A DNA stretch of 64,000 nt from Clostridiales bacterium (GTDB lineage: Bacteria > Bacillota > Clostridia > Monoglobales > Monoglobaceae), in NCBI GenBank assembly GCA_019419865.1, contig JAHZIG010000014.1, positions 7,684-71,683 of the forward strand, given 5' to 3'. The notes under the pieces are model-generated. The model saw only the letters and a program-made list of their open reading frames with translations, had not been told where the DNA came from and searched no databases. A program made the translations under genes and the position numbers. Shown in pieces: positions 58,674 through 61,165 of the stretch. How positions within the stretch are numbered: the stretch's first letter is position 1; each line of letters begins with the position of its first letter.

Positions 58674-58767
58674 GCCGCTCAAACCAATTTGACGGATACG
58701 AACATATTTATCCCAAATACAAAATATAATATCATATGGGAAAAATACGCCTTAGGGAGTGAGAAAT

Positions 58768-59637
58768 ATGTATGTATTCAGGTTTAAGACGGTCTTACTG
58801 TTTTTAGCGCTCTTCTGCGCTTTGGCTTTCAGTCTCAATTATTTTATAATACAAGACCGCGGCGGCGCGTACGACGAGCTTGCGGTCTCGGGCGATGCGT
58901 CCGTCGAGTTGCCGATAATAATGTATCACGGCGTGATAGACCAGAGCAAATGGGTAAACGAATACGTAATTTCCAAGGAGAGCTTTGAATCCGACCTTAT
59001 ATATCTTAAGCAAAACGGGTATACGACCGTGACGATCGGCGAGGTAATAGACTATGTATATAGCGGCGCGCCGCTTCCAGAAAAACCGATCGTTCTCACA
59101 TTCGACGACGGCTTTTACAACAACCTGAGCATCGTATATCCGCTGCTTGAGAAATATAATATGAAAGCCGTGATCTCAGTCGTCGGCGCGTATACAGATA
59201 AATATTCCGAACTGGACGATAAGAACCCCGGCTACGCGTACCTGAGCTGGGACGACGTCCGCTTTCTTTCAGAATCTGGCTTAGTGGAAATAGGCAACCA
59301 CAGCTACGACATGCACAGCATAGATTCCGCAAGGAACGGGACTAAAAAGAACAAAAACGAGAGCGAAGAACATTACAGAAAGGCGCTCACCGAAGACGCC
59401 GGAAAGATGCAGGAACTTTGCGCCAAGAATTTGGGCTTCGAGCCCGCGGTGTTCACATACCCGTACGGGGCTATAAGCGAATGTTCGATCGATATCCTAA
59501 ACGAAATCGGCTTCAAAGCTTCGCTCTCCTGCGAGGAGAGAATAAACTACATAAGCGTCGGCGATACCTCCTCTCTCTGCTGTATGAATAGGTTCTTCAG
59601 AAGTAACGATAAATCTTTAAGCGCGATACTAACGTAG
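58768..59637 (+). CDS. Membrane-anchored polysaccharide deacetylase (CE4)
   Basis: The 289-residue protein has an N-terminal membrane helix (TVLLFLALFCALAFSLNYFII) and a NodB-type deacetylase domain: MYHGVID, the metal and base motif VLTFDDGFYNN, the HxxxH ligand pair in GNHSYDMH, and FTYPYGAIS. It probably removes acetyl groups from cell-wall or surface polysaccharide outside the cell. The start at 58768 is eight bases after GGGAG. Its last codon and stop (ACG TAG) merge with the end of the heptad repeat element that follows. Confidence 0.9.
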   Translation: MYVFRFKTVLLFLALFCALAFSLNYFIIQDRGGAYDELAVSGDASVELPIIMYHGVIDQSKWVNEYVISKESFESDLIYLKQNGYTTVTIGEVIDYVYSGAPLPEKPIVLTFDDGFYNNLSIVYPLLEKYNMKAVISVVGAYTDKYSELDDKNPGYAYLSWDDVRFLSESGLVEIGNHSYDMHSIDSARNGTKKNKNESEEHYRKALTEDAGKMQELCAKNLGFEPAVFTYPYGAISECSIDILNEIGFKASLSCEERINYISVGDTSSLCCMNRFFRSNDKSLSAILT

Positions 59638-59828
59638 AGATTAGCGATTAGAGATTAGCGATTAGGAAGTCCAATACGTTTCTGTAGCGTTAAAAACGGT
59701 TTCTTAAGCCGCATAGGAAAACAGAGTATTCCATTCGCTTGCCGTATCGTTCGGCGTTAAACTAGCAAATATCCGCCCCTATTCGCTATTCGCTAATCTC
59801 TAATCTCTACTTCTCTAATCGCTACGTT
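59631..59828. repeat. Heptad-ended repeat element, copy A
   Basis: The element opens with AACGTAG and four heptads of the type (A/C)GATTAG (59638-59665). It closes with CTATTCG, CTATTCG, CTAATCT, CTAATCT heptads (59779-59806) and CTACGTTG. The ends are thus inverted repeats. The roughly 110-base core contains ACGTTTCTGTAGCG and TAAAAACGG. The left end overlaps the deacetylase stop codon. Copies B, C and D share the ends and core. Confidence 0.75.
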
Positions 59829-59829
59829 G

Positions 59830-59858
59830 TTGACAACTGAAAAATTTTATTGTATAAT
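59830..59858 (+). promoter_or_regulatory. Consensus promoter of putative antitoxin RNA
   Basis: TTGACA (59830-59835), exactly 17 bases, TATAAT (59853-59858). It is a perfect sigma-A promoter pointing into the small hydrophobic frame on the other strand. Confidence 0.8.
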
Positions 59859-59864
59859 AAAAGC

Positions 59865-59952
59865 AGAAAAGAGGAGAACCGTTAAACGGTTAGCCAGAGA
59901 ATGATTTAAATTAATATAGTCGCTCTCTGCCAAGGGCGGCTATATCGCTTTT
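59865..59952 (+). ncRNA. Putative antisense RNA (type I antitoxin-like)
   Basis: Expected transcript from the consensus promoter. It contains AACCGTTAAACGGTT hairpin (59877-59891), ACGGTTAGCCA (59886-59896) and ends at an ATATAG/CTATAT stem (59914-59945) followed by CGCTTTT. It is complementary to the 3' part of the peptide frame on the minus strand. No open frame of note is inside. The ends are inferred. Confidence 0.5.
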
Positions 59953-60015
59953 ATGGAAACTATTATTAAAAAAAATAATAATAGATACGATCACTTTAAG
60001 TAATGCGTTCCACAT
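59911..60015 (-). CDS. Putative type I toxin-like hydrophobic peptide (34 residues)
   Basis: ATG at 60015 is preceded by a very strong ribosome site (AAGGGGGTGA at 60021-60030). The peptide has a hydrophobic helix (WNALLKVIVSIIIFF, residues 2-16) and a charged tail (HKSDIAALGRERLY). It has a near-consensus promoter (60098-60126) and an opposing, overlapping promoter on the plus strand. The leader's ACGGTTAGCCA can pair with TGGCTAACCGT near the 3' end of the same transcript, like the fold-back known for hok-type mRNAs. I do not recognise the peptide family. The size, layout and strength of the signals favour a type I toxin. Confidence 0.55.
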   Translation of the reverse strand: MWNALLKVIVSIIIFFNNSFHKSDIAALGRERLY

Positions 60016-60097
60016 AAGCGTCACCCCCTTCCTGCCGCTGGTTGCGACAATAGGCGGTGGCTAACCGTCCTTCAATTACCTCTTATCTGCTTCAATA

Positions 60098-60126
60098 ATT
60101 ATATATCATTCGACATACTTAGTCAA
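60098..60126 (-). promoter_or_regulatory. Promoter of putative toxin mRNA
   Basis: On the minus strand TTGACT (60121-60126), 17 bases, TATAAT (60098-60103), giving a leader of about 75 bases before the peptide start. Confidence 0.75.
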
Positions 60127-60229
60127 TTTACAATTCTCTTACAAAGTATCCCAATTACGCAAACATAGCCGCTTAGACGTTAAAGAATCCCGTTTCACTC
60201 CTAATCGCTAATACCTAATCTCTACGTTG
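60127..60229. repeat. Heptad-ended repeat element, truncated copy D
   Basis: Read on the minus strand, right after the metA stop: CAACGTAG, then heptads AGATTAG, GTATTAG, CGATTAG, then a core (TTCTTTAACGTCTAAGCGGCT) that aligns with copy B. The far end is missing; the toxin promoter starts where the similarity fades. Confidence 0.65.
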
Positions 60230-61165
60230 CTAATCCTTACGCTCGTCAATCTCATTTATATCATACGGCGTGGTCTGATATACAAAGTAGTTCAGCCAGT
60301 TCGAATACAAAAGATTCGCGTGGGCTCTCCACTTCATAGGCGGCTTTTGTTTCGGGTCGTCGTTCGGGAAATAGTTTTTAGGCATGTCTATATCCAAACC
60401 CTTTTCCAAATCTCTGAAGTATTCCTTGGCGAGGGTCGTATCGTCGTACTCCGAGTGTCCGGTCACAAAGAACTGCCGCTCGCTCTTCGCGGTGACTATA
60501 TACACGCCGCTCTCGTCCGAGACGGACAGTATCTCAAGCTCGGGAACTTTTTCAATATCCTCCGCCCTGACCTCGGTATGTCTCGACTGCGGCACGTAAA
60601 ACGTATCGTCGAAGCCGCGCAGGAGTATCTTATGCTTCTTCTCCGGCAGTACGTAATGCTCGAACACGCCGAATATCTTTTTATCGGTAGGATACTTCTT
60701 GATCCCATAATGGTAGTAAAGCCCCGCCTGAGCGCCCCAGCAGATATGAAACGTCGAAGTTACGTTCTTCTTCGACCACTCCATGATCTCGCAAAGCTCC
60801 TCCCAGTAATCTACCTCTTCAAATTCAAGGTGTTCGACCGGAGCCCCGGTTATTATCATTCCGTCGAATTTCTTATGCTTTATATTGTCGAACGTCACGT
60901 AAAACGTATCCAGATGGCTCTGCGACGTATTTTTAGATTCATACGACTTGGTATGCATAAACGTGGCGTTGATCTGAAGCGGAGTGTTGCCGAGCATTCT
61001 AAGCAGTTGGGTCTCGGTGTCTATCTTGGTCGGCATCAGGTTCAGAATCACTATTTCAAGCGGACGAATATCCTGGGATATAGCCCGCGTCTCGGTCATA
61101 ACAAATATATTCTCGTTTCCCAAAGTCTCTATTGCCGGTAGATTATCTCTTACTTTTATTGGCAT
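60230..61165 (-). CDS. metA: Homoserine O-acetyl/succinyltransferase
   Basis: The 311-residue enzyme activates homoserine for methionine synthesis. It has the MetA start [21 protein letters not shown], the [21 protein letters not shown] block, nucleophile Cys in [17 protein letters not shown] and the acid residues in TGHSEYD, ending [29 protein letters not shown]. Whether it uses acetyl- or succinyl-CoA cannot be said from the visible motifs with certainty; Firmicute MetA proteins often use acetyl-CoA. A promoter TTTACT-N17-TATAAT lies upstream on the minus strand. The last codons (RKD) and stop touch repeat copy D. Confidence 0.95.

Follow-up and report, generated by a model that had tools for sequence, protein, structure and literature searches.

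Setting and anatomy of the module

The locus described here lies within a stretch of 64,000 nucleotides of clostridial DNA, to which we refer as the window, and occupies the space between two converging gene ends, those of a polysaccharide deacetylase (58759-59637, plus strand) and a homoserine O-succinyltransferase (60230-61165, minus strand); genes for a subtilase and a GGDEF protein are found farther out. As both flanking genes end toward the module, neither of its promoters leads into a neighbouring gene. An initial annotation, made from the sequence alone, had read this space as a type I toxin-antitoxin module with opposing consensus promoters, a minus-strand ORF of 34 codons behind AAGGGGGTGA, a hairpin and a repeated ACGGTTAGCCA, and all of these elements are indeed present in the window sequence (Table 1). 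The two promoters face each other with 239 bases between their -10 hexamers. Sites of this N17 type with at least 11 of 12 consensus matches number ten in the 64-kb window, two of them perfect, as against a mean of 0.1 in 20 Markov-generated sequences; consensus promoters are far from chance here, yet they are not unique to the module locus. At the position of the toxin promoter, promoter-like sites occur in most, not all, of the relatives described below.

Table 1. Features of the window module, in the order of the minus-strand toxin mRNA and then of the plus-strand antitoxin RNA
Feature	Position	Strand	Remarks
Toxin mRNA promoter, TTGACT-N17-TATAAT	60126-60098	minus	11/12 consensus matches; predicted
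Predicted toxin mRNA at full length, about 237 nt, with 5' and 3' ends paired	59856-60092	minus	ends inferred
5' box A of toxin mRNA, AGCAGATAAGAGG	60079-60091	minus	at predicted transcription start
5' tag (box B) of toxin mRNA, ACGGTTAGCCA	60058-60068	minus	covaries with its partner in relatives
Leader hairpin hiding the ribosome-binding site	60021-60061	minus	AAGGGGGTGA at 60021-60030; predicted fold
ORF, 34-residue peptide MWNALLKVIVSIIIFFNNSFHKSDIAALGRERLY	59911-60015	minus	34 codons 59914-60015; stop 59911-59913
Hairpin within the ORF, variable T run in its loop	59960-59984	minus	predicted
Hairpin beside the family-ORF stop codon	59914-59945	either strand	terminator-like on plus strand, predicted antitoxin 3' end
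Antitoxin RNA promoter, TTGACA-N17-TATAAT	59830-59858	plus	12/12 consensus matches; predicted
5' box A of antitoxin RNA, AGCAGAAAAGAGG	59862-59874	plus	
5' tag (box B) of antitoxin RNA, ACGGTTAGCCA	59886-59896	plus	read on the minus strand, 3' partner of the tag in the toxin mRNA
Predicted antitoxin RNA, about 89 nt	59865-59953	plus	fold z = -2.98; ends inferred

Each RNA would thus begin with two short boxes. Box A of the toxin mRNA and the box at 59862-59874 match and change in concert across modules, and the two copies of the tag form an inverted pair of 11 bases. For the toxin mRNA, the only terminator candidate within the window is a weak one (59891-59877). Repeats of the TTAGAGATTAGCGATTAG type flank the module in both orientations (59634-59666, 59778-59826 and 60199-60241). 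At the gathering score, no Rfam family matched the window module; six sub-threshold matches obtained at relaxed settings were taken as chance.

A multi-copy family across Clostridia

By sequence comparison, the window locus does not stand alone; it represents one chromosomal member of a multi-copy family that occurs across Clostridia. In the nearest genome, BLAST with the module DNA returned the orthologous stretch and many more places (79 matches, part of them to flanking repeats); many of the matches to the ends of the query appear due to repeats of the TTAGAGATTAGCGATTAG type. A profile built from 17 family peptides matched 15 places in this genome at E <= 0.01, and an equal number at E <= 0.1. 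Homologues in Clostridia are found with the same profile in 21 of 38 genomes of the family (E <= 0.1, some matches being weak) and in 21 of 291 genomes of the class (E <= 0.01), 7 of the latter belonging to the same family. In a separate inspection of profile hits for ORFs, 33 gave no acceptable one; some of these were duplicates, degenerate copies or self-matches on the reverse strand.

A pattern scan of named genome contigs yielded 27 stretches, 25 of which are module-like by eye, among them records of Candidatus Roslinia caecavium, Candidatus Monoglobus merdigallinarum and Desulfosporosinus sp., as well as Clostridia assemblies labelled goat rumen, deer and 'Lapin'; the hits in Kluyvera (L069) and Chloroflexi (L079) were judged by eye to be chance matches. 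Among viral contigs, the scan gave 7 stretches, by eye only one of them module-like (L081), and BLAST against phages gave 7 records with short matches only (E = 0.9). Against plasmids, BLAST gave 30 records, the best matches falling in three records of Monoglobus pectinilyticus, a cultivable commensal of the gut; these three carry related stretches, and two of them were inspected. One such stretch (L052, NZ_OY725742.1) carries four tandem modules, three of them with the identical peptide MEYVYIIIFMIVFITLIESIKK, and no gene is listed for it in the plasmid table, which is itself incomplete.

Some copies show rearrangements. A terminator-like insert, GGGCAGGCGTCGCCTGC followed by T5, is present at three sites in the nearest genome (L006, L015 and L014, on contigs C15, C5 and C17), with 2 mismatches at one of them; in L006 and L015 it stands directly 3' of the 5' box of the toxin leader, and in L014 only the 5' part was seen. 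The insert could silence these copies; it was looked for in the window and is absent there. In L026, L033 and L035, by eye, genomic repeats replace part of the toxin leader, and in L035 also most of the ORF, the far end being kept, an apparent case of natural decay.

Peptide, coding constraint and reading frame

The peptides of most intact relatives have 22-25 residues, comprising a single hydrophobic segment and a short end that is often basic. Across the 13 modules with exactly 24 codons and a profile score over 140, pN/pS is 0.49 and pN lies below pS in 76 of 78 pairs, with codon position 3 the most variable and position 2 the least. Judging from these substitution patterns, the small hydrophobic ORF of intact relatives is under purifying selection, the window copy itself being out of frame. 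The stop codon of the 24-codon copies sits at the foot of the central hairpin. In L068 and L063-like modules, the Lys-Lys-stop codons by the hairpin amount, by eye, to a U-rich tract on the opposite strand, and the C-terminus of the peptide may there double as the antitoxin terminator.

The initial annotation recognised no named family for the peptide, and in our searches the window peptide matched none of the Pfam and NCBIfam families. The Hol_Tox model (PF16935) was likewise without a match in the 4 intact and 7 wider relatives tested and, at E <= 0.01, in the nearest genome; one module (L056) gave a sub-threshold match of 13.9 bits. A 'smalltalk' match of one family peptide was set aside at 16.4 bits, below the cut-off of 24.7. 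L060 and L081 combine the same tags and ribosome-binding site with another peptide, a basic one (MRISFDIWRF.. and MRITLHIGAF..), which suggests a further peptide type on this RNA scaffold.

Intact copies exist at other loci (e.g. L002, L003 and L012). The window copy and its orthologue L001, which aligns with the window over 3,189 bases at 96.4%, share the first approximately 16 codons, whereupon both depart from the family frame as a result of differing lengths of the T run in the ORF hairpin loop (59960-59984); the ORF of L001 comprises 16 codons. The 34-codon ORF of the initial annotation is open as described, but its second half lies outside the frame of the intact relatives, so that its product is probably not the family toxin. 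On this comparison, the 34-residue peptide is probably a frame-disturbed version of the family peptide of about 24 residues, a by-product of the change in the T run, and the window copy is probably decayed or frame-variable rather than a working toxin gene as it stands. It may make no working peptide, and may be dead; decay, slippage-dependent output and a homopolymer assembly error are all compatible with the change of frame.

The toxin mRNA is predicted to close end to end

The initial annotation had also pointed to folding of the minus transcript. In our predictions, the window toxin mRNA folds at -94.1 kcal/mol (z = -9.33), with none of 200 shuffles as stable, its first ~35 nt pairing with its last ~35 nt and 5 of the 6 Shine-Dalgarno (SD) bases being paired. 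Seventeen modules picked by hand from the 55 at our disposal, each folded from predicted start to predicted end against 40 shuffles, all have z-scores of -6.2 or lower. In 16 of the 17, at least 17 bases among the first 45 have partners within the last 65, the exception being L058, which shows no closed fold from its script-picked start; the SD bases are predicted to be paired in all 17, to the extent of 2 to 6 out of 6.

Two sets of nine modules, likewise hand-chosen from the 55, were submitted to RNAalifold, and no consensus helix of either set is without a two-sided change. For the wider set, both partners are changed in 7 of 16 pairs in the outer closing helix (121 of 140 cells paired) and in 5 of 12 in the inner one (101 of 108 cells). 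In the Monoglobaceae set, the outer helix has 2 two-sided pairs out of 18 and 14 invariant ones (144 of 159 cells paired, 15 unpaired), and the inner helix 5 of 11 (95 of 99 cells). The tag accordingly appears in several forms, each with its complement at the other end of the module (GGTTAGCCA, GGTTGTCAT, GGTTATCC, GGTTTGC and GGTTGCCC, and at peptide-profile loci also GGTTATGCCA, GGTTGTGCCA and GGTTGAC), and matched forms of the outer box include AGCAGAAAAGAGG, CACAAAAGGG, GATAGAG and GGGCAAG. Eighteen loci were hand-chosen from the profile searches, 14 lying outside the family, and in 14 of the 18 a perfect stem of at least 8 bases joining the two ends was seen by eye in box A or box B; L157 and L158 are identical in the stretch shown, and L158 is the same as L044 of the DNA search. 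L162, L173 and L140 are without such a stem, and the profile locus L170 looks spurious.

The ends of a module change in concert from the predicted transcription start

If the two ends of a module are compared with each other and with the ends of other modules, they are more alike within modules downstream of the -10 hexamer (21.26 versus 16.07; 47 modules, 0 of 10,000 permutations) and much the same upstream of it (12.55 versus 12.08; 1,207 of 10,000). This alignment test used 47 of the 55 modules; the promoters were chosen by a script, and 11 of the 47 modules have a weak one at one end. For the 16 whose two ends both show a clear promoter and a CGGTT tag, the figures are 29.19 versus 20.42 downstream (0 of 10,000) and 12.81 versus 12.60 upstream (3,810 of 10,000); the window is not among the 16 because its later stop shortens the antitoxin-side segment taken by the script. 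In modules of the L025 type, about 40 nt separate the -10 from the box on the antitoxin side. For the Monoglobaceae-type set by itself, the alignment test again gave 0 of 10,000 (n = 16), and a test by stem score was weak (503 of 10,000, n = 18). As the permutations compare means, single modules are less clear: in the stem-score test, which used 49 of the 55, the own ends are the best of their row in 9 of 49. Moreover, the modules are related by descent, so that these counts have to be read as strong indications and not as probabilities. With this reading, they indicate from sequence a concerted change in the 5' ends of the two RNAs, beginning at the predicted transcription start.

The mismatches between the ends are also informative. 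Written as toxin-strand RNA, transition mismatches give G·U in 284 cases versus A·C in 91, with G·U prevailing in 45 modules, A·C in 3 and ties in 5 (53 of the 55 modules; L001 and L072 were left out, L072 as near-identical or short). The G·U share of 0.757 exceeds that of shuffled ends (0.585, sd 0.030, largest 0.663 in 40 rounds); between the ends of different modules the share is 0.695, as related modules share the pattern. Similarity bound to the transcription start and G·U mismatches biased to one strand together point to pairing inside the toxin mRNA. The initial annotation had suggested a fold-back of the hok type for both RNAs; it is to be expected in the toxin mRNA, but not equally in both. 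The plus-strand RNA, with its predicted end at the hairpin at 59914-59945, would stop short of its own tag's complement, and a fold-back in the toxin mRNA rather than equally in the two also accords with the G·U bias.

Relation to known type I systems

A link to described toxins came with a locus found by tag pattern (L061), whose peptide, alone among the window and family peptides searched, exceeds the cut-off of PF16935 (Hol_Tox, 'putative holin-like toxin', Firmicutes) with 24.4 versus 23.3 bits. In genomes of the phylum, this family is matched in 25 of 199 at E <= 0.01, and above the cut-off in 19. At 23 Hol_Tox loci found by protein alone, out of 30 fetched (L113-L119 being left out), pairing averages -51.6 kcal/mol for own ends and -39.3 kcal/mol for mismatched ones (0 of 10,000 permutations). 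In 10 of 23 the own partner is the best of its row; L110 and L111 each pair less well than almost any mismatched ends, and L104 and L121 do not stand out. Matching ends are also present at an SPbeta-like phage locus (L125) and at a Paenibacillus phage locus annotated as 'putative holin-like toxin'. In its predicted fold, the window module has the end-to-end pairing seen at PF16935 loci as a group, and shares with them the ribosome-binding site near the tag and the ORF ending beside a hairpin. The two differ in that the window peptide and its tested relatives are without a PF16935 match, in the sequences of the boxes, and in that several Hol_Tox loci (e.g. L061) have an extra terminator-like hairpin after the closing helix, none being seen by eye in the window. 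BsrE is presumably a PF16935-type peptide, as the PF16935 match of B. subtilis among the control genomes and the close match at the SPbeta-like locus would suggest. As far as sequences can tell, the module belongs by its RNA scaffold beside the BsrE/Hol_Tox systems, its own peptide matching no family; it is the RNA scaffold, more than the peptide, that defines the group.

The bsrE/SR5, bsrG/SR4 and txpA/RatA pairs of Bacillus subtilis are described as proven chromosomal type I systems with small membrane toxins and 3'-overlapping antitoxins, in which ribosome-binding sites are hidden in 4-5 GC pairs; RNase III is reported to cut the duplex of sense and antisense RNA in most of these Bacillus systems (PMC6562991). 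In bsrG RNA, helix P1 is said to take part in antitoxin pairing (PMC7430163), and for the closing helix in Bacillus systems we claim no novelty. The window and the 17 folded modules resemble these systems in the predicted placement of the ribosome-binding site in a short stem; they differ in that the window antitoxin is predicted to have ~90 nt, whereas SR5, SR4 and RatA are given as 163-222 nt (PMC7430163), and in a peptide without recognisable similarity by Pfam model.

With the par/Fst system of pAD1, as described in PMC7472228, the module has in common convergent promoters, a hydrophobic peptide, an SD-hiding stem-loop and a terminator hairpin between the genes. However, complementarity of the two Fst RNAs is attributed there to direct DNA repeats, DRa and DRb, whereas the repeats of the window module are inverted (59886-59896 and 60058-60068), so that both RNAs carry the same 5' sequence. 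Silencing of a full-length toxin mRNA by long-distance pairing of its ends is described for hok/Sok and aapA/IsoA (PMC6733600), and an mRNA closed end to end is what they share with the module; by that account a distant element masks the SD in these systems, whereas the SD of the window module is placed in its own local hairpin. Any relation in sequence to them was judged through Rfam and Pfam. The type I systems of Clostridioides difficile, which a review presents as multi-copy, with antisense RNAs and small hydrophobic toxins of 34-59 residues (PMC6563280), are likened to the module by description alone: clostridial, multi-copy, small and hydrophobic. In titles and abstract openings, a literature search found no description of the module or of matching 5' tags.

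Discussion

What do these comparisons reveal about the nature of the module? In our judgement it quite probably belongs to a multi-copy family of type I toxin-antitoxin-like units, each predicted to comprise a closed toxin mRNA and an antitoxin RNA, of which the window holds one chromosomal copy, probably disturbed in its frame. The layout proposed in the initial annotation is thereby well supported by comparative evidence and was largely right for the family. The presence of many copies per genome with inverted ends, and in M. pectinilyticus (L052) in tandem, might recall a mobile element of the MITE type, whose ends would be terminal inverted repeats recognised by a transposase, with promoters and ORF incidental. 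Such repeats should resemble each other irrespective of the transcription start and without preference for a strand, and the opposite is observed: the likeness of the two ends is not seen upstream of the -10, and mismatches favour G·U on one strand, for which a repeat at the DNA level gives no reason. As, in addition, the ORF of intact copies is under purifying selection and the internal helices covary, we regard a mobile element as very unlikely. Less probable still is a structured regulatory RNA or leader-peptide attenuator serving a neighbouring gene, a reading suggested by the short hydrophobic ORF within a structured leader; the converging flanking genes end at 59637 and 60230, neither promoter leads into a gene, and by eye the copies at other loci have the appearance of the same closed unit.

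Within the toxin-antitoxin reading, it has to be asked what the window copy itself can do. The proposal of the initial annotation, in which the 34-residue peptide is the toxin of a functional unit, can invoke an open ORF and a good ribosome-binding site, but the departure from the frame of the 13 intact relatives after about 16 codons, a hydrophobic stretch of only about 12 residues (by eye) and the renewed difference of the orthologue L001 in the same T run leave it with little probability. Somewhat less improbable, though still unlikely, is that the copy is kept and its frame rescued or varied by homopolymer slippage, with a low or phase-variable output of toxin. In its favour, the run length varies among window, orthologue and paralogues, promoters, leader and hairpins are intact, and the orthologous region aligns over the length given above; however, the orthologous copies are only two, and plain decay or a homopolymer assembly error would explain them equally well.

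Returning to the family of toxin-antitoxin-like units, its anatomy, the coding constraint in relatives, the concerted ends and the covariation emerge from comparison of the modules. While comparison thus supports the closure and the shared boxes, the remaining mechanism, that is, transcription, transcript ends, translation, toxicity and the order of pairing, we infer from the Bacillus, Helicobacter and plasmid systems. The minus promoter would make an mRNA of ~230 nt for a short hydrophobic peptide, the first ~35 nt of which would pair with the last ~35 nt, with the ribosome-binding site placed in the leader hairpin. With closed ends and a hidden ribosome-binding site, the full-length mRNA should be translationally silent, to judge from its fold and from studied relatives. 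The opposite promoter would make an antitoxin of ~90 nt that starts with nearly the same two boxes as the mRNA, is complementary to its 3' part and stops at the hairpin beside the stop codon. Binding to the 3' region, this RNA would displace the mRNA's own 5' end, giving a duplex to be cut by RNase III. If the antitoxin falls, or if the 3' end of the mRNA is trimmed or opened, the peptide would be made and act on the membrane.

More tentatively, and as a possibility that we would not yet call probable, the modules may be part of a Firmicutes-wide toxin-antitoxin superfamily defined by its RNA scaffold and not by its peptide, in which two RNAs with the same boxes evolve in concert, the antitoxin acts as a decoy of the mRNA 5' end, and unrelated membrane peptides are carried. 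If true, the antitoxin would compete for the 3' complement of the mRNA and switch a closed mRNA to a cleavable duplex, and the peptide types would comprise the Hol_Tox/BsrE-like one, the MW..LLKxIVSxIIFLIIVSIKAM type and the MEYVYII...IKK type.

Whether copies whose 5' tags are nearly identical engage in cross-talk is a question raised by the 15 profile places in the nearest genome. Short, fast-drifting peptides make type I toxins hard to find, and a covarying scaffold that extends from both predicted transcript starts allows them to be sought independently of the peptide. The scaffold links an unrecognised group of peptides from gut Clostridia with the Hol_Tox and BsrE systems, and gives a concrete, testable claim on how an antitoxin would open a closed mRNA.
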